A DNA stretch of 64,000 bases from Microcella alkalica. GTDB lineage: Bacteria > Actinomycetota > Actinomycetes > Actinomycetales > Microbacteriaceae. The notes under the pieces are model-generated. The model did no database searches and was not told the DNA's origin. It saw only the letters and a program-made list of their open reading frames with translations. Where the stretch lies: assembly GCF_014137945.1 (NCBI RefSeq), contig NZ_JACGWX010000002.1, forward strand, positions 186,001-250,000, in the 5' to 3' direction. Numbering within the stretch: the stretch's first letter is position 1; each line of letters begins with the position of its first letter. Below are positions 23,328 to 48,847 of this stretch, piece after piece. The translations under genes were made by a program, and so were the position numbers.

Positions 23328-24565
<1,238 letters not shown>

Positions 24566-24583
24566 ACCCGGGGCGCAACAACC

Positions 24584-26908: not shown

Positions 26909-27478
26909 TCAGGCGTCAGGCCAGGAGTGGAACAGCTCGGTCCAGTTGGGGTGGCCGACCCCTGGGGCGCCGGCGACGCCGATCGAATACGCCGTGGCTT
27001 CGGGCTCGAAGGTGACGAGTTCGAGCTTGTGACCTTCCGGGCTCGTGAAGTATGCCGAAACGGCCTCGACCCCGCGGTGCTCGACCGGGCCGAATACGCC
27101 GATGCCGAGCCCGCGCAGGCGCTCGACGTTGTCGCGCAGGCCCTCGGCGGTGCAGCCGAAAGCCCAGTGCGGCCAGGAGTTGAAGTCGTCCTTGCCAACC
27201 TTCTGCACGCCATCCTGGGGCGACGCGAACTGCACGAGGGTGGTGCCGACGCGCATGAACACATGCTTCGAGCGGCCGAGCTCCGCATCGGCGTCGTTGT
27301 AGCCGGCGACGTAGTAGACCTCGCCGCCCAGCACCTCCTGGACGAACTTATACATGCGGTCCATGTCGAGCGCCGGCAGGGCGACGTGGTCGACGCCCGT
27401 GAAGCCGAACCGATTGTCGGTGCGGGCGAAGCGGGTGCCCGGGGCGGCGTCGTGGTTCTGGAGCGTGGATTCTGTCAT
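26909..27478 (-). CDS. VOC-superfamily protein (extradiol dioxygenase/glyoxalase-like)
   Basis: 189 aa built from paired beta-alpha-beta-beta-beta modules. A metal-binding His is expected in FTGVDHVALPALDMDRMYKF, another in SKHVFMRVG or WPHWAFGC, and the Glu in SPEGHKLELVTFEP. Family members include ring-cleaving dioxygenases and isomerases; in this setting ring cleavage or processing of a cleavage product is plausible. ATG 27478 overlaps the stop of the TAXI-like gene by 3 bp, so the two are coupled. Confidence 0.75.
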   Translation of the reverse strand: MTESTLQNHDAAPGTRFARTDNRFGFTGVDHVALPALDMDRMYKFVQEVLGGEVYYVAGYNDADAELGRSKHVFMRVGTTLVQFASPQDGVQKVGKDDFNSWPHWAFGCTAEGLRDNVERLRGLGIGVFGPVEHRGVEAVSAYFTSPEGHKLELVTFEPEATAYSIGVAGAPGVGHPNWTELFHSWPDA

Positions 27479-28425
27479 CGGTTTTCCTTCTCGTTGTTGT
27501 GGCGAACTTCCTCGTAATATGCGAGGGCCCCGGGGTGGAGGGGCAGGGACGTATCGGTCAGGGTCTCGAGGGTGAGGGGCGACGTCATGGCGCCGTGCGG
27601 TCCTTGGAAACGCGCGGTGATGTCGTCGGCCCGTTCGATGAGCGCGGCGGCGGTGAGGTAGGCGACCTCGTCGGGGAGGTCGTTGCGTGCGATCATCGCC
27701 CAACCGCTGAAGTCGACGGTCGCCACCGGCGCCTCCACGCCGCGGAATCTGCCCACGCTCACCGTGCCCCGCTGCATGCCGTCCCGTTCGAGCGCGTCGA
27801 GCACGTCGTCGTCGACGGGGAGGAAGGTCATGTCGTGGTCGTCCGTGATCTTCTTCCAACGGTGGGTCATCATCGCCTCGTCGAATACCGCGTCGAAGCG
27901 GGGGTCGACCGGGGTCGCATGGGGCGAGTTCATGTTCTTCGGGCGGTCGCTCAGGATTTCGCCGCCCCAGCGCTCGATATCGCCCGGCATGATGCCGTAG
28001 TGGGCGAGGATCTTCTCGACCACCCAGCCGGCCGGGTGCTTCATCTCTGGCGTCGGCATCGAGACCTTGAGCGGGTACTGCCGCTCGCGGATGTCATGAA
28101 GGCTGCGGATGCCCGTTTCGGTGCGCACCGCAAACATCAGGCGGTCATCGTGGGGGAACACCCCGATGACGCTGAGCGGGAGGGGCTCCGTGAAGGGTGC
28201 AATTCCCTTGATTGCGGCGTCGACGTACCAAATTGGTGTCGTGATGGCGAGGTCGTAGGTGCCGTCGGCGACGAGTCGCGGCGCCGCCATGCAGAATTCC
28301 CCGGGGTTGCCGGAGACGGCGGCCACGGTGGATCCGTCCGGGAGCTTGCTGTAGTAGCCGGCCATGCCGACCGCGACAAGCCCGCCGATGTCCATCCAGT
28401 TTTGGCCGGCGGCGAGAATTCTCAC
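27475..28425 (-). CDS. TAXI-type periplasmic-binding-fold protein without signal peptide
   Basis: 316 aa related to TRAP-TAXI solute receptors (NMT1-like). It starts directly with the first strand (MRILAAGQNWMDIGGLVAVG), so no export signal is present, and no TRAP membrane gene lies in the window. Conserved blocks shared with the paralog at 41622 are FPHDDRL, the HPAGWVVE segment, and DPRFDAVFDEAMMTHRWKKI. Start choice: GTG 28425 is the only standard start after the upstream stop; a GTAGGAG sequence lies 7 nt before an in-frame ATC at 28446, and an alignment to the paralog would favour a start there, but ATC starts are rare. First gene of the leftward operon. Function may be enzymatic (see findings). 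Confidence 0.7.
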   Translation of the reverse strand: MRILAAGQNWMDIGGLVAVGMAGYYSKLPDGSTVAAVSGNPGEFCMAAPRLVADGTYDLAITTPIWYVDAAIKGIAPFTEPLPLSVIGVFPHDDRLMFAVRTETGIRSLHDIRERQYPLKVSMPTPEMKHPAGWVVEKILAHYGIMPGDIERWGGEILSDRPKNMNSPHATPVDPRFDAVFDEAMMTHRWKKITDDHDMTFLPVDDDVLDALERDGMQRGTVSVGRFRGVEAPVATVDFSGWAMIARNDLPDEVAYLTAAALIERADDITARFQGPHGAMTSPLTLETLTDTSLPLHPGALAYYEEVRHNNEKENR

Positions 28426-28493
28426 GTGTCGGGGAGTCGTATTGATGTCGTGCTCCTACTCTCACTCTGGTGCAGAGAGCGAAGACCGGCTAC

Positions 28494-28526
28494 TCTGCCT
28501 GTCAGAATATAATTCTCCGAGGCAGA
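28494..28526. promoter_or_regulatory. 33-bp palindromic operator candidate
   Basis: Outer arms TCTGCCT/AGGCAGA and inner arms AGAAT/ATTCT are perfectly complementary around the centre ATA (28509-28511); only two 3-nt gaps (gtc/ccg) interrupt pairing. It covers the -10 box and half the spacer of the leftward promoter. Size and position suit a dimer or tetramer of an IclR-type regulator. Confidence 0.7.
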
Positions 28527-28534
28527 TAAGTCAA
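28506..28534 (-). promoter_or_regulatory. Sigma-70 promoter of the leftward catabolic operon
   Basis: On the minus strand TTGACT (28534-28529), a 17-bp spacer and TATATT (28511-28506) form a near-consensus promoter. Transcription would start near 28499, 73 bp before GTG 28425. The overlapping palindrome implies repression or close control. Confidence 0.75.
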
Positions 28535-28565
28535 GCACTGGCATCACCGCATTCTGATGTGTAGA

Positions 28566-28600
28566 GTCTTATTCTGTAAGACAGACAATCAGAACTTCTG
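28566..28600. promoter_or_regulatory. Operator-like dyads upstream of the Rieske operon
   Basis: GTCTTA-TTCTG-TAAGAC (28566-28582) is a perfect 6-bp dyad, overlapped by TCTGT-AAG-ACAGA. A second palindrome, CAGAA-C-TTCTG, spans 28590-28600. The CAGAA/TTCTG half-site matches the 33-bp palindrome next door and the site at 36334. No equally good sigma-70 promoter could be assigned to the rightward operon. Confidence 0.6.
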
Positions 28601-28642
28601 GACTGCAGCCCAGCATCCGGGGACTACCCCAGTGGAGAACGT

Positions 28643-30046
28643 ATGGACACCATTCAACAGGTCTTGGCCGACGTGCGGCGCGGGATGATTCCGGCCCACA
28701 TCTACAACGATGCCGAGATTTTCGAGCTCGAGAAGGAACGGCTCTTCTCGCGCGCCTGGATGTTTGTGGGCCACGAATCCGAGATTCCTCAGCCCGGGGA
28801 CTACGTCGTGCGACGGGTCCTGGAGGACTCGTTCATCATTTCGCGCGACGAGCAGGGAACCATTCGCGCACTGTTCAACATGTGCCTGCACCGCGGAATG
28901 CAGGTGTGCCGGGCCGAGATGGGCAACGCCTCCCACTTCCGGTGCCCGTACCACGGCTGGTCCTACCGGAACGACGGCCGCATCATCGGCCTGCCATTTC
29001 ACAAGGAGGCCTACGGCGGCGAAGAGGGGTTTGCTCGCAAGGGTGCGACGCTCCTGCCGGCCCCGAACCTCGCCAACTACAACGGGCTGCTCTTCGTGAA
29101 CATGGACCCGGACGCAATGCCGCTCGACGAGTACCTCGGCGACTTCAAGTTCTACCTGGACTACTACACCAAGCAGAGCGCCTCGGGCATCGAGCTCCGC
29201 GGCCCCCAGCGCTGGCGCATCAAGGCGAACTGGAAGATCGGGGTCGAGAACTTTGCGGGCGACATGTACCACACGCCGCAAACCCACACCTCCGTCGTCG
29301 AGATCGGCCTGTTCCGCGAACCGAAGGCCGAGAAGCGCAAGGACGGCATGACGTACTGGGCGGGCCGCGGCGGCGGCACGACCTACAAGTTGCCACCCGG
29401 CGACCTGGAGGAGCGGCTGGCCTACATCGGCTACCCGCCCGAGATGATCGAGAGGATGAAGCAGCTGTGGTCGACGGACCAGTTGCAGCTGATCGGCGAG
29501 GACGCCTTCATGATCTCGGCCGCCTCGCTCTTCCCGAACATGAGCTTCGTGCACAACTGGCCGAAGGTCGAGGAGGAGGGCGATGAGGTCGTCCCCTTCA
29601 TCTCGCTCCGCATGTGGCAGCCGGTGAGCGAAAACGAGACCGAGGTCATGTCGTGGTTCGCCGTCGACGCGGAAGCGCCGGAAGAGTTCAAGGAGCTCTC
29701 GTACAAGGCATACCTGATGTGCTTCGGCTCGACGGGGATGTTCGAGCAGGACGACGTCGAGAACTGGGTGTCGCTTACCAACACGGCGAAGGGCTCGATG
29801 GCGCGGCGGCTGCTGCTGAACAGCCGGATGGGCATGCTCAACGACGGCACCCCGGTGGTCCCCGCCCTCACCCGTGAGGAGTTTTCGGGGGCGGGGAGCG
29901 CCTATGTCGGCTACAGCGAGCACAACCAGAGGAACTTCCTCCAGGAGTGGGCGGACCATCTCGAGAAGCCGCCCGTCGTCGCTCCCTCCCATGCCGTCGG
30001 CATCACCAACGGCCAACTCGACCAGTACAGCTCGAAGGGAGCATGA
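28643..30046 (+). CDS. Rieske ring-hydroxylating dioxygenase, alpha subunit
   Basis: Catalytic subunit that activates O2 at a mononuclear iron to cis-dihydroxylate an aromatic ring. The 467 aa contain the Rieske 2Fe-2S site C81-x-H83 (CLHRG) and C101-x2-H104 (CPYHGW), and the iron site in ENFAGDMYHTPQTH with the bridging Asp and two His. The length and the separate beta subunit, 3Fe-4S ferredoxin and reductase downstream make it a three-component system like phthalate 3,4-dioxygenase of actinobacteria. The substrate is not readable from sequence. A GGAG ribosome site precedes ATG 28643. Confidence 0.93.
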   Translation: MDTIQQVLADVRRGMIPAHIYNDAEIFELEKERLFSRAWMFVGHESEIPQPGDYVVRRVLEDSFIISRDEQGTIRALFNMCLHRGMQVCRAEMGNASHFRCPYHGWSYRNDGRIIGLPFHKEAYGGEEGFARKGATLLPAPNLANYNGLLFVNMDPDAMPLDEYLGDFKFYLDYYTKQSASGIELRGPQRWRIKANWKIGVENFAGDMYHTPQTHTSVVEIGLFREPKAEKRKDGMTYWAGRGGGTTYKLPPGDLEERLAYIGYPPEMIERMKQLWSTDQLQLIGEDAFMISAASLFPNMSFVHNWPKVEEEGDEVVPFISLRMWQPVSENETEVMSWFAVDAEAPEEFKELSYKAYLMCFGSTGMFEQDDVENWVSLTNTAKGSMARRLLLNSRMGMLNDGTPVVPALTREEFSGAGSAYVGYSEHNQRNFLQEWADHLEKPPVVAPSHAVGITNGQLDQYSSKGA

Positions 30047-30630
30047 TGGCGCAGCTTCGACCGCACGCAAACTCTTCCCCGCTCGCTCGGCACGCCCCCA
30101 CCACGATGCGCACAGGCGAGGCGCTGTCGTTTAGCGACGAGCTGCACCTCGAGGCGCACCGGTGGCTGGTCAACGAGTCGTATCTGCTCGACGCGCAGGA
30201 TTACGGCACCTGGCTGGAATCGATCGCGCACGACGTGCACTACTTCATGCCCGTGCGGGTCACCACCGCCCTCGGGGCGGGCTACAGCACGTCGCCCGGC
30301 ATGGCCCACTGGGACGAGAACCGGTACTCACTCGAACGGCGGGTCGCCCGGTTCCAGACCGAGCACGCCTGGACCGAGGACCCGCCCTCGCGGCTGCGCC
30401 ACTTCATCACCAATGTCCGCACCTTCCGCACCGACGTCGAGAACGAGATTGCGGTCGACTCGGCCGTGCTCCTGTTTCGAAGCCGAGGCGATGTCAACGA
30501 GCCCTCGCTCATCTCCGCGGGCCGCGACGACCTGCTGCGCAAGGTAGACGGCCGCTGGATGCTCGCGCGTCGCCACATCCTCGTCGACGAGTCGGTGCTG
30601 CGCACGCAGAACCTGGCGATCTTCCTATGA
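30046..30630 (+). CDS. Ring-hydroxylating dioxygenase, beta subunit
   Basis: Structural subunit (194 aa) with the SnoaL/NTF2-like fold of dioxygenase small subunits. Visible are EAHRWLVNESYLLDAQDYGTW, the acidic VHYFMPVRVT strand, WTEDPPSRLRHFITNVR and LLRKVDGRWMLARRHILVDE (family hallmarks). It probably assembles as alpha3beta3. ATG 30046 overlaps the alpha stop (TGATG) and lies 7 nt after AAGGGAGC; an ATG one codon earlier is possible. Confidence 0.92.
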   Translation: MAQLRPHANSSPLARHAPTTMRTGEALSFSDELHLEAHRWLVNESYLLDAQDYGTWLESIAHDVHYFMPVRVTTALGAGYSTSPGMAHWDENRYSLERRVARFQTEHAWTEDPPSRLRHFITNVRTFRTDVENEIAVDSAVLLFRSRGDVNEPSLISAGRDDLLRKVDGRWMLARRHILVDESVLRTQNLAIFL

Positions 30631-30971
30631 GTCTCGAATGGGAGGGCGAGGCCGTCGACCGCGACGCCGCGCGCAGGGCCGCCCAGGAGCGGGAACGGCT
30701 GCTCGCGGGCCAGGTCGGCGACCCGATCACGATCGCGAATGAGTTCGCCGAGATCACGGTGCGCCGCGTGGAGACGCGCAACGGCTCGCGCCTGCTGATC
30801 GACGCGCCGCGGGCCGGCCAATGGGTTGCCATCGACCCGATCGAGCTGGAGGCGCTCACCTGGCAGACCCCGGATACGTTCTCGGCGATGATCGCGCGGC
30901 CCTTCGAGCCGCTGTTCGTCGAGGGCGCCGGCACGTATGACGCCGAGGTCTCCGGCGTCGACAACCACTGA
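30627..30971 (+). CDS. Hypothetical protein within the dioxygenase operon
   Basis: 114 residues of unknown function, not recognised. It has an acidic/basic N-terminal helix (VDRDAARRAAQERERLLAGQ) and a beta-rich remainder including ITVRRVETRNGSRLLID, GQWVAIDPIELEALTW and PFEPLFVEG. No cysteine cluster, signal peptide or membrane segment. It is tightly coupled (ATGA with the beta subunit, 11 bp to ferredoxin), so it is likely part of, or an assembly helper for, the oxygenase. Confidence 0.7.
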   Translation: MSLEWEGEAVDRDAARRAAQERERLLAGQVGDPITIANEFAEITVRRVETRNGSRLLIDAPRAGQWVAIDPIELEALTWQTPDTFSAMIARPFEPLFVEGAGTYDAEVSGVDNH

Positions 30972-30982
30972 GGGGAGATGAC

Positions 30983-31180
30983 ATGGCGATCGTCACAGCG
31001 AACCTGTCACTGTGTCAGGGCTACGCCAACTGCGTCGTCGCCGCCGACGACTATTTCGACATCGACGACGACGGGCTCGTGGTGCTGCTGAAGACCGACG
31101 TGCCCGACGATCAGCGCGAGCGCGTCGAAGCGGCCGCGCGGTCGTGCCCAGTCTCGGCGCTGCGAGTGACGGACGCGTGA
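30983..31180 (+). CDS. [3Fe-4S] ferredoxin
   Basis: 65-aa electron carrier. The motif C11-x5-C17 followed by SCPVSAL gives three cysteines with Gln/Gly in the second position of the usual CxxC, as in 3Fe-4S ferredoxins serving actinobacterial oxygenases and P450s. It passes electrons from the reductase encoded next to the Rieske centre. A GGGGAG ribosome site precedes ATG 30983. It overlaps the reductase gene by 1 bp. Confidence 0.93.
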   Translation: MAIVTANLSLCQGYANCVVAADDYFDIDDDGLVVLLKTDVPDDQRERVEAAARSCPVSALRVTDA

Positions 31181-32457
31181 TGGCAGACACGCGCGCATCC
31201 CGGCCGGCCCACCCTGACGACCGCGGTGCCGGCGTGGTGATCGTCGGCGCCTCCGTCGCCGGGGTGCGCACCGCGCAGGCGCTGCGGGCGGAGGGCTATG
31301 CCGGCACGATCACGATGCTCGACGCGGAGTCGGCCGAGCCCTACGACAAGCCGCCCCTGTCGAAGAACCTGCTCACGGGCGCGGCCTCCGCCGACGACGT
31401 GCGCCTGTTCGGCGAGGGAGAGGCGCACGAGCTCGAGATCGACCTGCGGCTCGGGGTACGTGCCGTTTCGCTCGACCTTGGAGCGCGCACCGTCGTGTGC
31501 GAGTCCGGTGAGCGGTTCCCGTTTTCGCAGCTCGTGATCGCCTCGGGCGCTCGCGCCCGCAGACCCGCCTGGGCGAGTCTCACCGGCGTGTTCACCCTCA
31601 GGTCGATGGCGGACGCTGCGGCCATCCGTGAGCGGCTGGTACCCGGGTCGACCGTGGCGATCGTGGGCGCCGGGTTCATCGGCGCGGAGCTGGCGTCGGC
31701 CGCGCAGGCGGCCGGGGTGCAGGCGACCCTGATCGATCCTCTCGCCACGCCGTTGGCCCGCATCCTGGGCAGCGAGGTGGGGGCCCTCCTCGCCGACTGG
31801 CACCGCTCGAAGGTCGCCACCGAGTTTGGTGTGGGCGTCACGGACGTATCACCGGAAGCTGGCTCGCTGAGGGTCACGCTCAGCGATGGCCGGCGCCTGA
31901 ACGCCGACACCGTGCTCGTGGGAATCGGGGTGGAGCTCAACGTGGAGTGGCTCCTCGATTCCCCGATTCATCTCGACGGCGGGGTGCTCTGCGATGCGTC
32001 CGGGCGCGCGCTCGACGCGTGGGGTGACCCCGTGCCAGACGTGTTTGCGGTCGGGGATGTTTCGCGCTGGTTCGCGCCCGGCCGCGGTGCCCACGTTCGG
32101 GTGGAGCACTGGACGAACGCCGTCGAACAGTCTCAGGTGGTCGCGCGCGCCGTGGTCGACCCGGGGGGCGCAGCCGCCCACCATCCGTCGTTCGCCGTGT
32201 GGAGCGACCAGTTCGGTTCGAAGATCCAGATGTCTGGGTACACCCAGGCGGAGGACGTCGTCGTCGTGATCGACGGCGAGCGCTGGGTTGCTCTCTACGC
32301 GGATGGCGGCTCGCTGGTCGGGGTCGTCACCGTCAACTGGCCCCGTCTGCAGATGCTCGCGCGGCGCACGATCGCCAGCGGGGGCACCAGGGATGTCATG
32401 GTTGAGCAGGCCCAGGCGCTCCGCGAGCATGCCGCAGCGGCCCGGCCTGGTGGTTGA
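31180..32457 (+). CDS. NAD(P)H:ferredoxin reductase, FAD-dependent
   Basis: 425-aa reductase of the rubredoxin/ferredoxin reductase (BphA4-like) family. FAD-binding GxGxxG variant VIVGASVAGVRTAQAL near residue 22; EPYDKPPLSKNLLTG, a family hallmark; NAD-binding VAIVGAGFIGAELA near 160; FAVGDVSRW near 290, which contacts FAD. It feeds the 3Fe-4S ferredoxin. ATG 31180 overlaps the ferredoxin stop. Last electron-transfer gene of the dioxygenase system. Confidence 0.94.
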   Translation: MADTRASRPAHPDDRGAGVVIVGASVAGVRTAQALRAEGYAGTITMLDAESAEPYDKPPLSKNLLTGAASADDVRLFGEGEAHELEIDLRLGVRAVSLDLGARTVVCESGERFPFSQLVIASGARARRPAWASLTGVFTLRSMADAAAIRERLVPGSTVAIVGAGFIGAELASAAQAAGVQATLIDPLATPLARILGSEVGALLADWHRSKVATEFGVGVTDVSPEAGSLRVTLSDGRRLNADTVLVGIGVELNVEWLLDSPIHLDGGVLCDASGRALDAWGDPVPDVFAVGDVSRWFAPGRGAHVRVEHWTNAVEQSQVVARAVVDPGGAAAHHPSFAVWSDQFGSKIQMSGYTQAEDVVVVIDGERWVALYADGGSLVGVVTVNWPRLQMLARRTIASGGTRDVMVEQAQALREHAAAARPGG

Positions 32458-32485
32458 ACGATGAGCGGTAAGGTACGTTTCTGTT

Positions 32486-33277
32486 GTGCAGAACCTGAAC
32501 ATGGGCCAGACGCCCGAGGCCGGCCCGCCTCCGCAGTACCCCATCGAGTCCGTCGACAACGCGCTGAAGATTCTGCTGCTCTTCGGGGAGAACACCGAGC
32601 TGCGGCTCACCGACGTGCGACAGTATCTGGGCGTCGCGTCCTCGACCGCGCACCGGCTGCTGGCCATGCTGCAGTGGCGCGGCTTCGTCAGACAGGACCC
32701 CACGTTAAAGGTGTACCGTCCGGGACCCGCGCTCACGACCATCGCGTTCTCGATTCTGCAGAAAATGGATGTGCCGCGCATCGCGAAACCGGTGCTCGAC
32801 GAACTCACGGAACGGCTCGGCGAAACCGTGCACCTCGGATCGCTCGACGGCGGGCGGGTTCGCTTCCTTGCCGTGGCCGAACCGGCCGCGGCCGTGCGAG
32901 TGGCGTCGCGCCTCGGCAAGCAGATCCCCGCGCACACCACCTCGACCGGCAAGGTGCTCCTCGCCTCACTCTCCGCGGAGGAGCTGTACCGCCTCTACCC
33001 AAACGAAGACTTGCCGCCGGTAACGGAACGTTCAATCGTGTCGCGAGCGGAGCTGCTGCGACAGATCGAGCGGGTGCGCATCGACGGCTTCGCCGTCAAT
33101 CGCGAGGAGAGCGAGGAGGGTGTGGGCTCCGTCGCGGTGGCGCTGCCGTTCACCGGCAACGGCCACTACGCGCTGAACATGGCCGCACCAATCCACCGGC
33201 TCCCAGCCGGCAAGGTGAAATCGGTCGCCGCCGAACTCAAGGCGGCCGCGGAGCGGCTGACGCAACTCCTCTCCTGA
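32486..33277 (+). CDS. IclR-family transcriptional regulator
   Basis: 263-aa regulator with an intact N-terminal winged helix (IESVDNALKILLLFGEN, LRLTDVRQYLGVASSTAHRLLAML) and effector domain (GETVHLGSLDGGRVRFLAV, IPAHTTSTGKVLLASL). IclR proteins bind short palindromes and respond to pathway acids. It lies 28 bp after the reductase gene, in the same direction, and is the obvious candidate to bind the TTCTG/CAGAA dyads at 28494-28600 and 36334. Starts at GTG 32486. Confidence 0.92.
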   Translation: MQNLNMGQTPEAGPPPQYPIESVDNALKILLLFGENTELRLTDVRQYLGVASSTAHRLLAMLQWRGFVRQDPTLKVYRPGPALTTIAFSILQKMDVPRIAKPVLDELTERLGETVHLGSLDGGRVRFLAVAEPAAAVRVASRLGKQIPAHTTSTGKVLLASLSAEELYRLYPNEDLPPVTERSIVSRAELLRQIERVRIDGFAVNREESEEGVGSVAVALPFTGNGHYALNMAAPIHRLPAGKVKSVAAELKAAAERLTQLLS

Positions 33278-33293
33278 ACAGGAAGGCACCCCG

Positions 33294-34139: not shown

Positions 34140-34151
34140 AGGGCGAAACGA

Positions 34152-35390
34152 ATGGATGCACCGAAGCCGGCCCACCCGCACACCGCCAACCGGTCGCCGC
34201 GGCCGCTCGACGGGATTCGAGTGCTCGAGCTGGGGACGCTGATCGCGGGCCCCATGAGCGGCCGAATCCTCGCCGACTTCGGCGCCGAGGTCATCAAGAT
34301 CGAAAGCCCGGACGCGCCCGACCCGATGCGATCGTGGGGGCACGTCGTGGAACGCGGCGAGAGCCTGTGGTGGGCGGTGCAATCGAGGGGCAAGCGTTCC
34401 CTGATGCTCGACCTCAAGGACCCGCAGGGCAACGAGGTGTTTCGCCGTCTCGTACGAGAAGCCGACGTCCTCGTCGAGAACATGCGGCCGGGCACGCTCG
34501 AACGGCTCGGCTGCGCGCCCGACGAACTCATGAAGCTCAACCCGGGCCTGATCGTCGCGCGCGTGTCGGGGTACGGGCAGACCGGCCCTCGGTCCGGGCA
34601 ACCGGGGTATGCGTCGGTCGCGGAGGCGGCGGGCGGTCTGCGCCACCTCAACGGGTACCCGGACACCCCTCCTCCACGGGCCGGCATATCGCTCGGCGAC
34701 AGCCTCGCCGCGCTCTACGCGGTGCAGGGCATTCTCACCGCCCTGTACTGGCGGGATGCTCGAGGCGGCACGGGCCAGGTCGTCGACGTGTCCCTGACGG
34801 AAGCGTGCTTCTCGATGCTTGAAGCGGCCGTGCCGGAGTATGCGGCGACCGGCCGCGTGCCGCACGCCATGGGGTCACGGCTCGATGGCATCTCCCCGTC
34901 GAACATCTACCGCTCGGGCGACGGCGACTGGGTGGTGATCGCGGCCAACCAAAACACGGTCTTTGCCAGACTCTGCAAGGCGATGGGCCGACCCGAGCTC
35001 GCCGCGGACCCCAAGTTTGCGGACCACACGGCACGCGGGCGGAACCAAGACGAGCTCGACGCCATCGTTGCTGAGTGGTCGGCCGGCTTCACCACCCCCG
35101 CTCTGCTCTCCGTTCTCGACCGGCACGGAGTGCCGAACAGCCGGGTGAACACGGTCGCCGACATCGCGGCCGACGACATGTTTCGCGAGCGCGACATGCT
35201 CGTCGAGGTGCCGCACCCCCGCTTAGGCGCGGTTACGCATCCGGGCATCGTGCCGAAGCTTTCGGCAACCCCGGGCGTGATTCGTGCGAACGGGCCGACC
35301 GAGGGGGAGCACACTCGGCAGGTGCTGCGCGACGCCGGCTTCGACGATGAGCAAATTCGGCGTCTCACCGAACGGGGCGTGGCACGGTGA
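34152..35390 (+). CDS. Family III CoA-transferase (CaiB/BaiF)
   Basis: 412-aa CoA-transferase. Recognised blocks are RVLELGTLIAGPMSGRILADFGAEVIKIE (in parts), NMRPGTLERLG, VSGYGQTGPRS, and SLGDSLAALYAVQGIL; by family knowledge the Asp in GDS (near residue 183) forms the acyl anhydride intermediate. It would move CoA from a donor such as succinyl-CoA to an acid of the pathway. It is coupled to the HMG-CoA lyase-like gene (GTGA overlap), indicating that the CoA ester it makes is the lyase substrate. Confidence 0.92.
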   Translation: MDAPKPAHPHTANRSPRPLDGIRVLELGTLIAGPMSGRILADFGAEVIKIESPDAPDPMRSWGHVVERGESLWWAVQSRGKRSLMLDLKDPQGNEVFRRLVREADVLVENMRPGTLERLGCAPDELMKLNPGLIVARVSGYGQTGPRSGQPGYASVAEAAGGLRHLNGYPDTPPPRAGISLGDSLAALYAVQGILTALYWRDARGGTGQVVDVSLTEACFSMLEAAVPEYAATGRVPHAMGSRLDGISPSNIYRSGDGDWVVIAANQNTVFARLCKAMGRPELAADPKFADHTARGRNQDELDAIVAEWSAGFTTPALLSVLDRHGVPNSRVNTVADIAADDMFRERDMLVEVPHPRLGAVTHPGIVPKLSATPGVIRANGPTEGEHTRQVLRDAGFDDEQIRRLTERGVAR

Positions 35391-36283
35391 GCGCCCCCGT
35401 CGAGCTCATCGATGTCACCCCCCGCGACGGCCTGCAGAATGAGGCCACCGTCTTGTCGCCGACCGCGAGAGCGGAGCTGGTGCGACGCATCATCGCGACG
35501 GGCGCGAGGCGGATCGAGGCGGTGAGCTTCGTGCGCGACGACCTGGTTCCGGCGATGGCCGGCGCCGAAGAGGTGCTCGCAGGGATCGGCCCCCACGTCG
35601 GGGTGACGATTGCGGGGCTCGTCCTCAACGCGCGGGGCATGCAGAGGGCGGCAGACGCCGGGGTCGACGAGGTGAACTTCGTCATCCCGGCCACCGATGC
35701 GTTCGCCCAGGCGAACCAAAACTCGAGCGTCGCCGGCCTCATGACCGAGCTCGGCGCGGCGGCGCGGGTGGCTGCCGACGCAGCCATCCCCCTGACGGTG
35801 ACCATCGCCGTCGCGTTCGGGTGCCCCTTCGCGGGGGTTGTGCCGCCAGACGCCGTCGCTCGGATCGCGAAGCACGTCACGGGCTCGTTCGGCGTCGCGG
35901 AGCTCGCGCTTGCCGACACGATCGGGGTGGCAACCCCGTGGCAGGTGCGCGAGACCTTCCACGCGGTCGCCGCGGAGACCACGGTGCCGCTGCGCGCCCA
36001 TTTCCACGACACGCGCCGCACGGCGCTCGCGAACGTGTTTGCCGCTCTCGGCGAGGGTGTTCAGCGCTTCGACGCGAGCCTCGCGGGGCTTGGCGGGTGC
36101 CCGTTTGCCCCGGGCGCCGCGGGGAACGTGGCTATGGAAGACCTCGCTTGGATGCTCGACCGGGCCGAACTGAAGCACGGGATCAGCGTTTCGGCGGCAC
36201 TCGAGGCCGGTCGCGCGGTCGCCGCGCAGCTCGGCGTGGCGCCACGCTCGGCTATTGCCGGTGCCGGGCCTTTTCCGCGATGA
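35387..36283 (+). CDS. HMG-CoA lyase-like enzyme
   Basis: 298-aa TIM-barrel lyase of the HMGL-like family. Starts VELIDVTPRDGLQNE (Arg and metal Asp), with ADTIGVATPWQ, the metal-binding HFHDTRRTALAN and the catalytic Cys loop GLGGCPFAPGAAGNV all present. HMG-CoA lyase splits 3-hydroxy-3-methylglutaryl-CoA to acetoacetate and acetyl-CoA; related enzymes cleave other 3-hydroxy-3-substituted acyl-CoAs. Next to a CoA-transferase it likely performs the last carbon-carbon cleavage. Start GTG 35387 overlaps the previous stop. Confidence 0.92.
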   Translation: MSAPVELIDVTPRDGLQNEATVLSPTARAELVRRIIATGARRIEAVSFVRDDLVPAMAGAEEVLAGIGPHVGVTIAGLVLNARGMQRAADAGVDEVNFVIPATDAFAQANQNSSVAGLMTELGAAARVAADAAIPLTVTIAVAFGCPFAGVVPPDAVARIAKHVTGSFGVAELALADTIGVATPWQVRETFHAVAAETTVPLRAHFHDTRRTALANVFAALGEGVQRFDASLAGLGGCPFAPGAAGNVAMEDLAWMLDRAELKHGISVSAALEAGRAVAAQLGVAPRSAIAGAGPFPR

Positions 36284-36329
36284 CGAAAGATCACACACCT
36301 CGTGGCAGAAGTGTTCTTTAGAGTAGGGC

Positions 36330-36358
36330 TTGATTCTGTCTCCCAGAAAACATAGGCT
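36330..36358 (+). promoter_or_regulatory. Promoter with an operator in its spacer, upstream of the ABC importer
   Basis: TTGATT (36330-36335), a 17-bp spacer and TAGGCT (36353-36358). The dyad TTCTG-N5-CAGAA (36334-36348) sits between the two boxes, so a bound protein would block RNA polymerase. The half-sites match those in the divergent promoter region at 28.5 kb. Confidence 0.7.
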
Positions 36359-36483
36359 CTCGAATGCCCGGAGATAATCCGGACCGAAACGCAGTCTCGG
36401 TTCCTATCTGGGGGCGCCTCAACTGCCGTGGGATTCCCCACGCACCAAGGGAAACGACAGCGAACCCAATGAAGGGAAAACGC

Positions 36484-37644
36484 ATGAAGGCAACGACGCC
36501 TAAATTCCTTGCCGTCACCAGTTTTGTGGCGGCACTCACCCTCCTCGCAGGATGTTCGTCGGGTGACTCCGCCGAGCCGGCCGAGAGCCCAGACGCCGCG
36601 CCCGTCGCGGACTGGCAGGAGGGAGCCCCGGCCGAGTGGGCCGAGATCCTTGAGAAGGGCCAGGCCGAAGGGGAGGTCGTCCTCGACTCGTCTCCCGAGC
36701 TTCAGCAGTCCGACTTCGCGGCCCGATTTGAAGCGGACACTGGAATCAAGATCGTGTCGGCGGCGGGGGAGTCCAGCGCGCGGTACACCGCCATGGAACA
36801 GGAAGCTCAGGCGAACCAGCTGAGCATCGACGTTTCGCTCGGCGGCGGCACCGAGCTGGGGATGATCGACCAGGGACTGCTGCAGGACATCAAGGCGCAG
36901 ATGATCCTGCCGAACGTCACCGACCCCGATAACTGGGTCGGCGGCGACGGCCCCACCTGGATGGACGACGAGGGCAAGTACATGCTGCGCTCCTCGAACT
37001 ACGTCTTCGGCTGGGCCATCGTCAACAGCGACACCTTCGACGCCGAAGAGTTCGACAGCTGGGATGACCTGCTCGACCCCAAGTACAAGGGCAAGATCGC
37101 GACCTATGACCCGCTGAGCGGCCCCGGCCAGGCGGTCTCCGCCTTCTTCTACGACGCCCTGGGTGAAGAGTTCGTCGAGGACCTCTACGTCGGCCAGGAA
37201 CTGGTCCCGACCACCGATCGGCGCCAGCTGATCGAATGGGTCGCGCGCGGCACCTACGACATCGCGCTCGGCGGAACCCAGGCCGAGCTTGAGCGGTTCG
37301 CCCGCGAAGGGCTCCCCGTCACCGGCGTCATGCCGCGCGAGGGGATCGGCCAGTACACGGGCGGGTCCGGGGTGCTGAAGCAGCCGCTGAACGCGAACGG
37401 CTCCCTCACGCCGCACCCGAACGCCGCCCAGGTGTTCATCAACTGGTTCGCCAGCACCGCCGGACAGCAGGCATACGGCGACGCCATGCTCGAGGTCACG
37501 ACGCGCAACGATGTGGACCTCTCGAAGATCCCGGACTACGTCAAGCCGGAAGAGGACCGCGAGTACATCGACACCTACGAGGAGCACTGGTACACGGTGG
37601 TTCGGAACGAAGTCGCGGCCGAGCTTCGCACGATGCTCGAGTAG
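36484..37644 (+). CDS. Iron-type (Fbp/AfuA-like) ABC transporter substrate-binding lipoprotein
   Basis: 386-aa receptor with a lipoprotein signal ending LLAGC (lipid Cys near residue 23). The mature protein shows the SBP_bac_6/8-type fold: GEVVLDSSPELQQSDFAARFEADTG (in parts), DSWDDLLDPKYKGKIATYDP, and NAAQVFINWFASTAGQQAY. Such receptors bind Fe3+, but relatives in catabolic clusters bind small organic anions; no iron-ligand Tyr pair could be assigned. AAGGGA precedes ATG 36484 by 8 nt; ATG 36469 is an alternative. It begins the transporter operon. Confidence 0.88.
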   Translation: MKATTPKFLAVTSFVAALTLLAGCSSGDSAEPAESPDAAPVADWQEGAPAEWAEILEKGQAEGEVVLDSSPELQQSDFAARFEADTGIKIVSAAGESSARYTAMEQEAQANQLSIDVSLGGGTELGMIDQGLLQDIKAQMILPNVTDPDNWVGGDGPTWMDDEGKYMLRSSNYVFGWAIVNSDTFDAEEFDSWDDLLDPKYKGKIATYDPLSGPGQAVSAFFYDALGEEFVEDLYVGQELVPTTDRRQLIEWVARGTYDIALGGTQAELERFAREGLPVTGVMPREGIGQYTGGSGVLKQPLNANGSLTPHPNAAQVFINWFASTAGQQAYGDAMLEVTTRNDVDLSKIPDYVKPEEDREYIDTYEEHWYTVVRNEVAAELRTMLE

Positions 37645-37730
37645 CGCAAACCCTCGCCAGTGTGTCGGGCGCGAATCGCGCCCGACACACTGCTGCACCA
37701 CTAGATCCTCAGACGAAAGGCCCTGAACAC

Positions 37731-39494
37731 GTGTTCAACCCAGCCGCACCCGCTGTAACCCGCCCCCCACGGGTGGGACGACAGAGAGCCGACAAGAAGT
37801 CGATCCTGCTGGGAGTGCTCGTTTGCCTGCTGGTCGGCGCGCTCACGGTCACGCCGGTGATCTATGTGATCATCGGAAGCTTCAACTCGCAGAGCCTGGG
37901 GCAGGGATTCAGCTTCTCCCTCGAGGGCTGGAGTCGACTCTTTGCGTCGAGCGCCACCCTGGAGTCGATCTGGTATTCCTTCGTCTTCGCGGTGCGCATC
38001 CCCATCGCGCTCGTGATCGCATTTGGCATCGCCTGGCTGCTGGTGCGAACCGACCTCCCCGGGCGCAAGTTCATCGAGACGTCGCTCTGGGTCGCGTTCT
38101 TCCTGCCCGCGCTTCCCGTCACCATCGGCTGGGTGCTCCTCGCGAATGAGGACTACGGGCTGCTGAACTCGGTGGTGCAGATGATGCTGCCCTGGGTGGA
38201 GGAGGGGCCGTTCGCGATCAACTCGGTGATCGGGATCCTCTGGGTGCACCTGACGATGAGCACGATTCCCATCATGGTCATCCTGCTTTCGCCGGCGTTC
38301 GAGCAGTTCGACGCCTCGTTCGAAGAGGCGGCGGAGTCGTCGGGCGCCCGGGTCGGCACCACGCTGCGCAAGGTCACGCTGCCGCTCCTCGCGCCGGCCG
38401 TCTTCACCGCATTCATCGCGGGACTCATCAAGAGTCTCGAGGTGTTCGAGGTGGAACAGATTCTTGGGACCCCGGTCGGTATCGGCGTGTATGCCAACCG
38501 GATCTTCGAACTCGTGCGACTCGACCCGCCCGCCTACATGGACGCCATGGCCATCGGCACGCTGTTCCTGATCGTGCTCCTGGTGGCGGCCATCGTCTAC
38601 CAGATCGTGCTGCACAAGATGCAGGCCCAGGCCACCCTCACCGGGCGCGGCCTCAGGATGAATCGCAAGCTGCGCACGCGCTCGCTCTACGTCGCGTCGG
38701 CCCTCATCATCACCTTCATCAGCGTCGGGGTCTTCCTGCCGATCCTGACCCTGCTGGTCGGCTCGTTCAACAAGATCTTCGGGTTCTTCTTCATCAGCTC
38801 CCCCTGGACGACCTCCCACTGGGAGCGGGTGCTCGCCAACCCCGACTTCCTTTCGGCCGCCGGGAACTCGATGGTCATCGGAATCGTCGCCAGCACGCTG
38901 GGCACCCTCCTTTTCGCGCTGCTCGCTTGGCTGCTGGTTCGCTCTCGCATGCGCGGCAAGGCGATCCTGAACATCCTCGTCTGGATGCCGTGGGCGATCC
39001 CCGGCGTGCTGATGAGCATCGCAGTCCTGCGCATCTTCCTCACGGTGCCCGGGCCGAACCTGCTCTACGGCACTCTTGCCCCGCTCATCATCGTGTTGAT
39101 CATCAAGGAGATGCCGCTCGGCACCCAGATGTTGCGCACCGCGATCATGCAGGTTGCGCCCGAACTCGAGGAGGGTGGCCAGGTTTCCGGCGCACGGTTC
39201 CGGCAGGTCTTCTTCAAGATCACGCTGCCGCTGATAGCCCCGATGCTCGTCACGGTCTTCATGCTGACGTTCGTGACGACCCTTCGCGACGTCGGTTCGG
39301 TCGTGTTCCTTGCGCCGCCTGGAACGAAGAACCTTCCCATCCTCATGTTCGAGTATGCCAACGGCGGTGCGATGGAGTCGGGCGCGGTGCTCGGCGTGAT
39401 CATCGCCGCGCTCGCCCTGGTGCTGGTGTCGGTGGCGATGCGGCTTGGCCTTCGCATGAACCCGCACCGCGACACAAGAAAGGCACGCAAGTGA
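37731..39494 (+). CDS. Iron-type ABC transporter permease, two fused domains
   Basis: 587 aa with two BPD_transp_1 domains of six membrane segments each, the FbpB/AfuB pattern. EAA loops are visible in each half: FEEAAESSGARVGTTLRKVTLP and LEEGGQVSGARFRQVFFKITLP (each within its domain). A single chain therefore forms the whole channel. The frame is open further upstream, but GTG 37731 gives a normal cytoplasmic N-terminus. It lies 86 bp after the receptor gene and overlaps the ATPase start (GTGA). Confidence 0.92.
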   Translation: MFNPAAPAVTRPPRVGRQRADKKSILLGVLVCLLVGALTVTPVIYVIIGSFNSQSLGQGFSFSLEGWSRLFASSATLESIWYSFVFAVRIPIALVIAFGIAWLLVRTDLPGRKFIETSLWVAFFLPALPVTIGWVLLANEDYGLLNSVVQMMLPWVEEGPFAINSVIGILWVHLTMSTIPIMVILLSPAFEQFDASFEEAAESSGARVGTTLRKVTLPLLAPAVFTAFIAGLIKSLEVFEVEQILGTPVGIGVYANRIFELVRLDPPAYMDAMAIGTLFLIVLLVAAIVYQIVLHKMQAQATLTGRGLRMNRKLRTRSLYVASALIITFISVGVFLPILTLLVGSFNKIFGFFFISSPWTTSHWERVLANPDFLSAAGNSMVIGIVASTLGTLLFALLAWLLVRSRMRGKAILNILVWMPWAIPGVLMSIAVLRIFLTVPGPNLLYGTLAPLIIVLIIKEMPLGTQMLRTAIMQVAPELEEGGQVSGARFRQVFFKITLPLIAPMLVTVFMLTFVTTLRDVGSVVFLAPPGTKNLPILMFEYANGGAMESGAVLGVIIAALALVLVSVAMRLGLRMNPHRDTRKARK

Positions 39495-40654
39495 CCGTCA
39501 ACACAGCCCCCGTGACCGAAACGCTCAGCAGCCCCGGGTCCACCGACGCAATGATCGAGGTCACCAACCTCTGCAAGGAGTACGTCGCAGGGTCGGGCGC
39601 GATGGCGGTCGACAACATCAGCTTCACGATTGGCGGCGGCGAGCTTCGAACGCTGCTCGGGCCGAGCGGCTGCGGCAAGACCACCACCCTGCGAATGCTT
39701 GCCGGGCTGGAACGACCGACCTCCGGCGAGATCCGCATCGGCGGCACCATCGTCTACTCGTCGGAGAAGCGCATCTGGTTGCCCGCGAATCAGCGGCGCA
39801 TCGGCATGGTGTTTCAGTCGTACGCGATCTGGCCCCACATGTCGGTGTTTGAGAACGTGGCATTTCCGCTCCGGGTCTCCCGACCGCGCATCGCGCGCTC
39901 CGAGATCAAGCGGCGCACGCTCGAGGCGCTCGAGGCGGTCGGGCTGAGCGAGTTCGCTCAGCGCGCGGGAACGGCGCTCTCCGGCGGCCAACAGCAGCGC
40001 GCGGTGCTCGCGCGCGCCATCGTGCGTGAGCCCGACGTGCTGTTGCTCGATGAGCCCCTCAGCAACCTCGACGTGAAGCTGAGGGAGCGGATGCGCGACT
40101 GGATTCGCGACGTGCAGGAGCGCACCGGTCTGACGACCGTCTTCGTCACGCACGACCAGTCCGAGGCCCTCGGCCTCTCCGATCACATCTCGGTCATGAG
40201 CTCCGGCCACATCGTCGAAACCGCGTCGCCGGTGAGCCTGTATCGCGAGCCCGCCGACCCGTTCTCAGCACGGTTCGTCGGCTCGGTGAACTGCATTCCT
40301 GGAGTGGTGCGGGCCGTCGATGGGCGGCGAGCTGTCCTCGCCACCGTCATCGGCGATATCGACGCGCGCATGGTGGCCCCATCGGCCATCGGAGAGGACG
40401 TCGAGGTGTTCGTGCGTCCGGAAGACCTGCTCATCTCGAGGGCGGACCCGGGTGCGTCATCCGCGTTCCTCTCGTCGCTCACCTACCAGGGCTCGCACTG
40501 GGATGTCATGGTCGCCGTCGACGGAACCCCGCTGCGCGTCGTCATCGACCGGAGCCCGGGCCTCGTGGCCGGGGAGGCCGTCTCGGTGGGCATCCGCGAC
40601 GACAGCGCGGTCACGGGATTCCCGGCGAGCGCCGGCGTGAGCGAGCAGCCATGA
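39491..40654 (+). CDS. Iron-type ABC transporter ATP-binding protein
   Basis: 387-aa ATPase of the FbpC/PotA group. Walker A GPSGCGKTT, Q-loop VFQSYAIWPH, signature LSGGQQQRA, Walker B VLLLDEPLSNLD, switch His in VFVTHDQSEAL. A C-terminal TOBE-type domain (about residues 270-380) follows, typical of this group. GTG 39491 is chosen because upstream residues belong to the overlapping permease frame. Its stop overlaps the OCD gene start by 4 bp. Confidence 0.93.
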   Translation: MTVNTAPVTETLSSPGSTDAMIEVTNLCKEYVAGSGAMAVDNISFTIGGGELRTLLGPSGCGKTTTLRMLAGLERPTSGEIRIGGTIVYSSEKRIWLPANQRRIGMVFQSYAIWPHMSVFENVAFPLRVSRPRIARSEIKRRTLEALEAVGLSEFAQRAGTALSGGQQQRAVLARAIVREPDVLLLDEPLSNLDVKLRERMRDWIRDVQERTGLTTVFVTHDQSEALGLSDHISVMSSGHIVETASPVSLYREPADPFSARFVGSVNCIPGVVRAVDGRRAVLATVIGDIDARMVAPSAIGEDVEVFVRPEDLLISRADPGASSAFLSSLTYQGSHWDVMVAVDGTPLRVVIDRSPGLVAGEAVSVGIRDDSAVTGFPASAGVSEQP

Positions 40655-41625
40655 CGCTGCTGCTCAGCCGGAGCGACGTCTCCGAGATCGCCTGGGCCGA
40701 CGGCGGCCGCGCGCTCGACCTGCTGATCGAGCGCATCGAGGACGCGTACTCGCAGCTCCACGACGGGGTCGCCGCCCAGCACGCGCGCATCTACCTCCGG
40801 CCCCAGACTGAAGCGCGACGGCCGCCGGGGCTGTTCTCCATGTCGGCGCTACTGCCGCGCACCGCCCGCATGGGAACCCGGCTCATGGCCATCACGCAAC
40901 AGGGCAAAGCCGGCGCCGGGGTGCTGGTGCTTTTCGACCACGTCACCTCCGAACTCCTGGCCATCGTCGACGACGAGCTGCTGCACAGCTACCGCTCCGG
41001 CGCCCCGGCCGGCCTCGCCACCCGCATGCTCGCGCGGCCCGAGTCAGAGGTGGTCGCGTGCATTGGCAGCAGCACGATGGCGATGGGCGGCCTCGTGATG
41101 ACGAGCCGCTCCCTCCCGAACCTCTCGAAGGTGCTCATCTACAGCCCCAACGAGGAACGGCGCTCCGCGTTCGCCTCCGAGATGGCCGACACCCTCGGCG
41201 TCGACGTGGTCGCGGTAGACAGCGCGGACATCGCCGCCGCTCAGGCGGATGTCGTCGTGATCGGCACGAACGCCGACCGGCCGGTCGTCAGCGACGAAGC
41301 GATCCGGCCGGGCACCCACATCAGCGTGCTTGCGCGCAACGAGGTCCCCATGACCACCTTCCGCCGGTCGCGGATCGTGCTTGGCTCCCGAATGGCGCAG
41401 CGCGAGCTCGATCCGCCATGGAGTGACCCGATCCCCGATGGCTGGGTGGATGCCGAGCTCTCGGACCTGGTGGGCGGCACGGGATCTCGCCGAACCGAGG
41501 CGGACGATGTCACGGTCTTCGTGGGCAGCGGGCCGCTCGCAATGTGGGACGTGGCAGCGGCCGCGGTGTTTCACGAGGAGGGCACGAGGATGGGACTCGG
41601 CATGAGCATGGATTTCTCCGCATGA
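40651..41625 (+). CDS. Ornithine cyclodeaminase/mu-crystallin-family protein 1
   Basis: 324-aa NAD(P)-dependent dehydrogenase-fold protein. The N-terminal dimerisation part holds AYSQLHDGVAAQHARIYL and GTRLMAITQQGKAGAGVLVLFD; the Rossmann half has VVACIGSSTMAMGGL where most members have GxGxQA, so the dinucleotide loop is atypical. Family members are cyclodeaminases, ketimine reductases and amino acid dehydrogenases. Embedded between the transporter and the TAXI-like gene with 4-bp overlaps on both sides, so it belongs to the pathway operon. Substrate unknown. Confidence 0.83.
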   Translation: MTLLLSRSDVSEIAWADGGRALDLLIERIEDAYSQLHDGVAAQHARIYLRPQTEARRPPGLFSMSALLPRTARMGTRLMAITQQGKAGAGVLVLFDHVTSELLAIVDDELLHSYRSGAPAGLATRMLARPESEVVACIGSSTMAMGGLVMTSRSLPNLSKVLIYSPNEERRSAFASEMADTLGVDVVAVDSADIAAAQADVVVIGTNADRPVVSDEAIRPGTHISVLARNEVPMTTFRRSRIVLGSRMAQRELDPPWSDPIPDGWVDAELSDLVGGTGSRRTEADDVTVFVGSGPLAMWDVAAAAVFHEEGTRMGLGMSMDFSA

Positions 41626-42584
41626 AGCGGCTCGATGGCCCGCTTGAGGTACGCATTCTCGGCGGCGGCCAGAACTGGACCAACATCGGCAGTTTGATCG
41701 CGATGGGACTGAGCGGCTACTTCAGCAAGTTGCCTGCCGGTTCGCTCGTCTCCGCGGTTACGGGAGACCCGGGCGCCATGGCGATGCAGGCTCCGCAGCG
41801 GGTGGCGGACGGAGAGTTCCATATGGGTTTCACGACGCCGCTCTGGTACGCACGGATGGCGATCGAGGGCCGCGGCCCGTTCGCCGAACCGCTGCCGTTG
41901 TCCGTGCTGGCGGTGTTCCCGCACGACGACCGCCTGGCGTTCGCGGTGCGTCGCGAGACCGGCCTGCGCAGCCTCCACGAGGTGCGGGAGCAGAAGTATC
42001 CGCTGCGCCTCTCCACGCCGTCGCGCGAGATGAATCACCCCGCCGGCTGGGTCGTCGAGGCCGTGCTTGAGCGCTACGGCATCACCCTCGACGACATCGA
42101 GTCGTGGGGGGGCAAGATACTGCGCGACCGCCCCCGCAGCCAGAATTCGCCGAGCGCCGTGCCCGTCGACCCCTCGTTCGATGCGGTGTTCGATGAGGCG
42201 ATCATGACGCGTCGGTGGCACAAGATCACCACCCAGTACGACATGAGGTTCCTCCCCCTGGACCGCGACATCCTCGACGGCCTGGTTGAGTACGGGATGG
42301 ATGCCGGCACTATCGCGGCGGACCGGCTGCAGGGCGTGCACGTTGACGTGCCGGCGGTCGACTTCACCGGCTGGGCGCTGATCTGCCGCACCGACATGAA
42401 CGAGGAACTCGGCTACCTCACGGCCGCCGCGATCCACGAGCGACACGAGCAGATCTCCGCCCGCTTCAGCGATCGATTCGACGGGATGACCGCCCCGATC
42501 GACATGCACACCATCGCCCGGACGGAACTCCCCGTCCACGCCGGCGCGCGAACCTACTATCGGGAGCACGGCTTCCTGGAGTAA
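41622..42584 (+). CDS. TAXI-type periplasmic-binding-fold protein without signal peptide, paralog 2
   Basis: 320 aa, roughly 55% identical by eye to the protein at 27475. Begins MKRLDGPLEVRILGGGQNW with no hydrophobic signal, so it should stay in the cytoplasm. Conserved with its paralog: SKLPAGSLVSAVTGDPG, PLSVLAVFPHDDRL, HPAGWVVE, SWGGKILRDRP and DPSFDAVFDEAIMTRRWHKI. It is co-transcribed with OCD genes and an unrelated ABC importer that already has its own lipoprotein receptor. See findings for the proposal that it is an enzyme. Confidence 0.72.
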   Translation: MKRLDGPLEVRILGGGQNWTNIGSLIAMGLSGYFSKLPAGSLVSAVTGDPGAMAMQAPQRVADGEFHMGFTTPLWYARMAIEGRGPFAEPLPLSVLAVFPHDDRLAFAVRRETGLRSLHEVREQKYPLRLSTPSREMNHPAGWVVEAVLERYGITLDDIESWGGKILRDRPRSQNSPSAVPVDPSFDAVFDEAIMTRRWHKITTQYDMRFLPLDRDILDGLVEYGMDAGTIAADRLQGVHVDVPAVDFTGWALICRTDMNEELGYLTAAAIHERHEQISARFSDRFDGMTAPIDMHTIARTELPVHAGARTYYREHGFLE

Positions 42585-48360: not shown

Positions 48361-48540
48361 GCTTGCACTCTACTTTCAATGTGGTAGCAATTCGGTATCA
48401 AAACGGTTGCAAACTGATAGCAATTGCAAACTAGTAGCATCCTGAAACTGTTCTGATATCAGAGTGGCACGCTATCGGTGTGATTGCAAGGTGAAACCGT
48501 AGTGATATTACCTAGCCATTTCAGAGTGATATCAGTGGGG
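48361..48540. repeat. AT-rich region with TAGCAA and TGATATCA repeats upstream of parA
   Basis: TAGCA(A/T) occurs three times at spaced positions (about 48383, 48418 and 48435), interleaved with TTGCAAACT repeats. TGATATCA follows at 48454 and 48527, with a near match at 48503. The region is far more AT-rich than its surroundings. Location directly upstream of parA makes it a candidate parS/operator. Confidence 0.55.
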
Positions 48541-48628
48541 AGCGCGAGGGGACCACCCCTCGCCGGCCGACCGGAGGGAGGCCGCGGGGTTGCCGGAGGG
48601 GCGGCCGATGCCGCCCCTCCGGGGGCTG

Positions 48629-48829: not shown

Positions 48830-48847
48830 GGGTGTGTCCTCTCGTTC

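Follow-up and report, generated by a model that had tools for sequence, protein, structure and literature searches.

MqnA, MqnD, Thi5 and DszB are enzymes that possess the binding-protein fold, and the 4,5-dihydroxyphthalate decarboxylase Pht5 equally shows the two-lobed architecture of binding proteins and occurs in aromatic clusters. The TAXI receptors such as TtGluBP (1us4, 8u79) and VcGluP (8s4j, 9ibo) are linked to TRAP permeases, and canonical TAXI-TRAP systems are known in clusters for aromatic compounds (PMC6362003; PMC13040137; PMC11705938). A TAXI protein without a TRAP partner has been described with TAXI-GltS of Bordetella pertussis, which is, however, a receptor exported as a lipoprotein that has an additional domain and works with a GltS permease (PMC12344293). 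Here, we analyse two TAXI-like proteins without a clear signal peptide, protein A (27475..28446, minus strand) and protein B (41622..42584, plus strand), encoded in a 64,000-nucleotide stretch of the Microcella alkalica genome (NZ_JACGWX010000002.1, positions 186,001 to 250,000; the window). Like the TAXI receptors, A and B possess the fold, the NMT1_3 domain and the C-terminal P-H block, and the DIExWGG block is shared with the signal-bearing TAXI proteins of this study; unlike the receptors, they lack a clear signal peptide and a TRAP permease, score below the cut-off of TIGR02122 and carry the acids D103, E192 and D247 and an extra tryptophan, W251. With a probability of about 0.58, we consider A and B to be cytosolic acid-base enzymes evolved from TAXI receptors, an activity predicted from the sequence. 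As in MqnA, MqnD, Thi5 and DszB, a receptor fold would thus serve as an intracellular enzyme, with B nearer by fold to the TAXI receptors. No signal-less or cytosolic TAXI protein was among the matches listed in the open-access full-text literature.

The assignment of both proteins to the TAXI fold, made in the original prediction from the letters of the sequence, holds. A and B exceed the cut-off of the Pfam family NMT1_3 (PF16868; 48.5 and 44.6 bits versus 27), the sole Pfam family to do so, while their sole NCBIfam match, TRAP_TAXI (TIGR02122), remains below its cut-off of 84.35 with 53.5 and 31.9 bits; comparison with the TAXI profile gave an E value of 2.5e-17. The structural model of B (mean predicted local distance difference test score, pLDDT, 95.2; predicted template modelling score, pTM, 0.92) retrieved with Foldseek TAXI chains as its top seven matches, with 1us4 as the best (E 8.9e-19, template modelling score, TM, 0.69); the eighth match drops to E 3.6e-8 and TM 0.47, and Thi5 has a TM of 0.48. 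A, with 316 amino acids from a GTG start or 323 from an ATC start, and B, with 320 amino acids, are identical in 179 of 309 residues (58%, E 6e-139, pairwise alignment), close to the 55% estimated earlier by eye, and the blocks FPHDDRL, HPAGWVVE and FDAVFDEA are present in both. Judged from the sequence, the rare ATC codon at 28446 seems to be the start of gene A, with AGGAG 6 bases upstream and a stop codon just upstream; no AGGAG-type motif is found close before the GTG at 28425. Already raised as an alternative in the original prediction, this start adds 7 residues without an added hydrophobic stretch.

Pht5 had been invoked as a precedent, and as such it stands in principle, namely as a cytosolic enzyme with a two-lobed fold; a closer kinship does not. 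In hhalign comparisons, the profile of the signal-less clade described below aligned with Pht5 over 120 columns at 85.7% probability versus 264 columns at 100% with TAXI. The Pht5 homolog of the window (57399..58385, plus strand; included for comparison only), which has no signal-like score, was modelled with a pLDDT of 78.6; its best solved match is the 4,5-dihydroxyphthalate decarboxylase 9jp7 (40% identity, TM 0.90), with TauA, Thi5, DszB and MqnD among the further ones. No TAXI chain is among the 50 matches listed for this model, and 9jp7 is not among the 50 Foldseek matches listed for B. Membership of A and B in the Pht5 family was rejected on the basis of the short profile alignment and the different nearest solved structures, and the models suggest Pht5 to be a distant relative on another branch of the fold.

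Relatives were collected by scanning species genomes with a pattern from an alignment of three members, which resulted in 67 loci. The tree equally contains 67 rows, composed of scan loci and relatives from plasmids and genomes; 11 of the 67 scan loci were left out of tree and counts, namely L033 (broken frame), L045 (partial), the near copies L058, L060, L068 and L069 and, with uncertain starts, L044, L052, L066, L072 and L073. L040, L004_P7sp and L009_spTAXI were included in the tree, but not in the counts of residue conservation and of scores and permeases, and the pair A and B is not among the 32 signal-less rows counted for the latter. All 35 signal-less rows fall on one side of a branch with a support of 100/100. 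They derive from the window, two genomes of its family, Alphaproteobacteria, bins named Deltaproteobacteria, Chloroflexota, Paenibacillus and one Hymenobacter plasmid, with members down to 23% identity with B. Four signal-bearing rows, three of them with a TRAP permease nearby, group with the signal-less clade (96/81), and since the tree is rooted at its midpoint, we infer the direction of change. Queries with three members identified Aminobacter, Phaeobacter and Hymenobacter as the best plasmid records, followed by weaker matches in Natrinema, Neptuniibacter, Sulfitobacter and Pseudochrobactrum (24-27% identity, one piece 32%); the Aminobacter and Phaeobacter records annotate the member as 'TAXI family TRAP transporter solute-binding subunit'.

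Export was judged by a hydrophobic-core score of our own, applied to N-termini from starts upstream of the fold. The 32 signal-less relatives score at most 1.45 and the 30 signal-bearing rows at least 2.05; as controls from the window, eight cytosolic proteins score at most 0.75 and the ABC lipoprotein 2.32. Six members found later do not exceed 1.28. The two groups differ equally in their linkage to transport. A TRAP permease lies within 300 bp in 26 of 30 signal-bearing versus 0 of 32 signal-less rows, with a Fisher p of 1.3e-13 that is nominal, since the rows include near copies and part of the signal-less contigs are short or break off near the gene. Signal-less homologs thus do not reside beside TRAP genes, the question on which the original prediction had made its reading depend, except for L009 and L010, where a permease is found within 3 kb; in L009, a second, signal-bearing TAXI gene lies between the signal-less gene and the permease as a separate receptor. 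On the Phaeobacter plasmid (L004), two signal-less members coexist with a separate signal-bearing TAXI gene at the permease, at least 7 kb away. The absence of a TRAP membrane subunit, claimed for the window, extends to the whole genome, as a search for DctM gave no match in this 99.99% complete assembly and was positive in 7 of 14 control genomes; DctM was equally not found in the five other same-phylum genomes carrying a relative that were examined. Among neighbours up to two genes deep, DctM accounts for 25 of 104 around signal-bearing rows (105 minus 1) and is missing from the 25 commonest families of the 102 around signal-less rows (104 minus 8 plus 6 hand-corrected frames), near copies, six signal-less and two signal-bearing, having been removed. 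A and B are very probably not TRAP receptors.

The residues that distinguish the clade are acids. P100, D103 and E192 are each present in 34/34 signal-less versus 0/30 signal-bearing rows and D247 in 32/34 versus 0/30, while an inserted W251 (30 W and 4 F in the 34 signal-less rows) is absent from the 30 signal-bearing ones. The positions of D103, E192 and D247 vary in the signal-bearing set; H306 and DIExWGG are common to both, although the constancy of WGG in the signal-bearing set means little, because this set was found partly through WGG. The six later members all possess D103, WGG, E192 and D247, five of them also P100, and seven ordinary TAXI proteins of the same genomes lack D103 as well as E192, with a glutamate at position 103 in three. 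Hinge strand 1 would begin with D103, a lobe-2 strand would end with E192, and D247 would directly precede W251 in hinge strand 2. Counted along the profile alignment, E192 aligns with Thr187 of TtGluBP and, wherever another chain extends over the site, with the equivalent column; Thr187 and its counterpart M201 in VcGluP contact the amino group of the ligand, and E125 of VcGluP is equally a ligand-contact residue (PMC11574862). The glutamate of an HPE/HKE receptor motif, with which D103 aligns in part of the chains, may be the sequence equivalent of E125. The conserved polar cluster that the original prediction had proposed to look for can thus be recognized in near-invariant acids aligned at or near ligand-contact positions, an assignment that is firm for E192 and uncertain for D103.

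Building on what the computations show, namely the fold, the separate clade, the missing linkage to TRAP genes, the near-invariant acids and the gene overlaps, we infer a cytosolic location and catalysis and, with them, the closeness of the acids in space, the substrate and the reaction type. A TAXI receptor once linked to a TRAP permease would have given up both its signal peptide and its partnership with the permease and become a cytosolic enzyme. The two-lobed cleft would have been kept, lined by the acids D103, E192 and D247 that receptors lack, and would close on an aromatic acid or on the product of its ring fission. D103 and E192 could then serve as general base and general acid in a proton transfer or a release of CO2 that needs no organic cofactor, with tautomerisation, isomerisation or decarboxylation as candidate reactions, among which decarboxylation is one option. 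The partners, encoded next to them, would be the VOC protein for A and the two ornithine cyclodeaminase/mu-crystallin (OCD) family enzymes for B.

A number of observations weigh against this interpretation. With 1.87 and 1.59, A and B themselves score between the signal-less and the signal-bearing group, and an ordinary TAXI protein (L094) scores 1.71, below A, so that the score alone does not settle the two proteins; if internal start codons are allowed, signal-less rows reach 1.94. Another TAXI-like protein (L099, G1039:C277:34593-35360) possesses neither a signal-like score nor the D103/E192 signature. Several signal-less contigs stop near the gene, so that 0/32 overstates the absence of a permease, and the genome of Paenibacillus thalictri carries two DctM genes elsewhere from its member. 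The scan pattern included WGG, and the signal-bearing set was picked by the same pattern. D103 stands opposite the glutamate of the HPE/HKE motif in only two of five alignments, those with 9oz4 and 4ddd, and the other three show a gap at this position. No Pfam family occurs in more than 4 of the 102 neighbours (FAD_binding_3, FAA_hydrolase and Rieske, with 4 each, are the commonest), i.e., there is no single partner family. Finally, acidic residues in a cleft can serve binding alone.

The last point leads to the main rival, which we regard as unlikely, but still as the most serious one: A and B might be cytosolic binding proteins that hold or sense an intermediate or hand it over to a partner, be it a VOC, an OCD or an oxygenase protein. 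They have the architecture of a receptor in both fold and cleft, it is not possible to assign a reaction to them, and the neighbourhoods fit a partner role. Of the 11 loci in the nearest clade, 8 contain near the signal-less gene a VOC gene of the subfamily of the window (at least 117 bits to the window VOC), in most cases adjoining it and 1.2 kb off in L012. Two signal-less paralogs per cluster, with 28-58% mutual identity, are seen in the window, L004, L020 and L085, which hints at heteromers or consecutive steps. On the other hand, three acids that remain near-invariant down to 23% identity and throughout varied clusters, at positions that vary in the signal-bearing set, look more like catalytic residues than like a specificity set.

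Equally, the gene content around the relatives, although called roughly on GC-rich flanks, shows a link to aromatic catabolism that recurs, but is not universal. In L087, an IclR gene is found with genes for an MhpA-like hydroxylase, a VOC protein, an FAH protein, the signal-less TAXI protein, a cupin and an alcohol dehydrogenase, with FAH and TAXI genes overlapping by 4 bases. L085 comprises an ABC importer, FAH, TAXI, a cupin-type gene, a dehydrogenase, a second TAXI gene, a dienelactone hydrolase-like gene and hydroxylase genes, with 4-base overlaps ahead of both TAXI genes, one of them with FAH. A Rieske ferredoxin gene adjoins the TAXI gene in P. thalictri (L008), where at least 6 kb upstream genes for FAH, a class II aldolase and a gentisate 1,2-dioxygenase-like protein (292 bits, below the cut-off of 442) are encoded, and in L086 a Pht5-like gene is part of the same same-strand run as the signal-less TAXI gene. 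A common pair of small proteins is encoded ahead of the signal-less gene in L009 (7417-8652) and L008 (7667-8945); without a Pfam family over cut-off, the pair is weakly like 3-hydroxyanthranilate dioxygenase (E 0.016 and 0.092). The distant member in L040 (76-9254) is situated among OCD, M24 peptidase-like, ABC importer and VOC genes, a setting that resembles the second cluster of the window.

In the window itself, the ATG of the VOC gene (glyoxalase/extradiol superfamily; 26909..27478, minus strand) overlaps the stop codon of gene A in an ATGA, and a class II aldolase gene is found at 26045..26809 on the same strand. All following genes are on the plus strand: the Rieske dioxygenase alpha subunit (28643..30046; 832.6 bits to the phthalate 3,4-dioxygenase 9jp5) and beta subunit (30025..30630, frame as searched), a 65-amino-acid open reading frame between dioxygenase and reductase (30983..31180) that is read from its position, with no family search, as a putative ferredoxin, the ferredoxin reductase (31180..32457) and an IclR-type regulator (32486..33277). 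A 114-amino-acid frame between beta subunit and ferredoxin (30627-30971) has no Pfam or NCBIfam match at 0.0001. Further downstream are genes for a CoA-transferase family III-type protein (34152..35390), a hydroxymethylglutaryl-CoA lyase-like protein (35387..36283) and an ABC importer composed of a substrate-binding lipoprotein (36364..37644), a permease (37662..39494) and an ATPase (39596..40654, frame as searched). Gene B is flanked by genes for two OCD family enzymes (40651..41625 and 42631..43611), the first of which overlaps with its stop codon the ATG of gene B, again in an ATGA.

Gram-positive pht clusters similarly contain genes for Rieske subunits, ferredoxin, reductase and an IclR regulator; they list, however, phtB and phtC, whereas the genome of the window has no PhtC over cut-off and two TAXI-like genes, and the word TRAP occurs in neither of the two texts (PMC12728591; PMC10434107). 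For PhtC (NF053537), the sole match in the window is the aldolase at 26045, for which PhtC is the best NCBIfam match, far below cut-off (76 versus 200 bits); A and B do not belong to this class II aldolase-type family. As the alpha subunit matches 9jp5, PhtC is below cut-off and intradiol dioxygenase genes are present on two other contigs of the genome, this gene cluster is likely to be a variant phthalate cluster. One special form of the enzyme reading, in which A or B would be the 3,4-dihydroxyphthalate decarboxylase that fills the PhtC step, draws on the same observations, the intradiol dioxygenases being available to take the product. We nevertheless judge it improbable. The adjacent class II aldolase with the PhtC fold is a simpler candidate for the decarboxylation step than A or B, and one step would not need two copies. 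A class II aldolase is encoded within 10 kb of members in the window, L004, L008 and, weakly, L033, for which reason the TAXI-like protein probably performs a step other than that of PhtC; L004 and L008, which have the aldolase and a member, contain no match to the dioxygenase alpha subunit of the window and thus speak against a general PhtC replacement.

That A and B are receptors after all, with an unrecognised export signal and in the service of the ABC or MFS importer or another permease, appears quite improbable. They match TAXI receptors best, in sequence as well as in fold, their own scores are not clearly signal-less, and TAXI-GltS is an example of a TAXI receptor that works with a different permease (PMC12344293). 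The lack of a signal peptide postulated in the original prediction is in this respect favoured by the fold and the relatives and left ambiguous by the scores of the two proteins. With starts upstream of the fold, none of the 32 relatives scores above 1.45, and the hydrophobic stretch of A and B is, according to the model, helix 1 of the fold, following strand 1. Strand 1 (9-13) and helix 1 (17-31) occupy the N terminus of the model of B, which therefore leaves little sequence ahead of the fold. The ABC importer has, as had been noticed from the beginning, its own lipoprotein receptor (lipobox LAGC), and in some clusters a signal-less member is accompanied by another TAXI protein that bears a signal and is encoded at the permease. 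Judged from these sequence features, A and B are probably cytosolic.

A and B are the only two family matches at 0.001 in the genome (2.74 Mb, 13 contigs). A match at 1e-10 was found in 3 of 299 Microbacteriaceae genomes, own included, and in none of five other genomes of the same genus, and a match at 1e-20 in 3 of 394 genomes of a class-wide and 2 of 396 of a phylum-wide sample, own included. Genes of this type are thus rare in the family, class and phylum samples and, as so few genomes match, probably acquired. Degenerate leftover receptors without function, to which the patchy distribution and the transposase genes in the window might point, are hardly conceivable in view of the open frames, the residues near-invariant throughout the clade, the gene overlaps and the preservation in several phyla.

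The surroundings of the cluster contain further genes of note. An IclR frame (25370-25972), of which Pfam recognizes the C-terminal domain only, abuts an integrase-core frame (24505-25401), and a second integrase-core transposase is encoded at 23423-24565. Two MFS transporters (43608-44795 and 54625-55962) resemble each other on visual inspection, the second being located next to the Pht5 gene and an ISL3 transposase (55950-57260); the paired MFS genes and the ISL3 transposase suggest an assembled catabolic island. Adjoining the cluster, ParA-like, ArdC-like and ParB-like genes and a gene for a 649-amino-acid protein without Pfam match (47728-54010) look like the backbone of a plasmid or an integrative element.

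Extending the enzyme reading beyond the window, we tentatively propose, as a suggestion for and against which the scales are nearly balanced, a family of cytosolic enzymes on the TAXI scaffold that spans multiple phyla, with a D103-E192-D247 active site and pairing with VOC proteins or between paralogs, whose recruitment would be separate from that of Pht5, MqnA/D and Thi5. One recent paper considers all other solute-binding proteins to be secreted or lipid-anchored (PMC12344293). If the proposal is true, records labelled as transport receptors would be misnamed enzymes, and clusters of the phthalate, gentisate and hydroxyphenylpropionate type, as named by their best family matches, would hold an uncharacterised step. 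Furthermore, the signal-less TAXI proteins would provide a clean example of the evolution of a receptor into an enzyme, in which the fold was kept, signal peptide and permease were lost and positions in the cleft were converted to acids.

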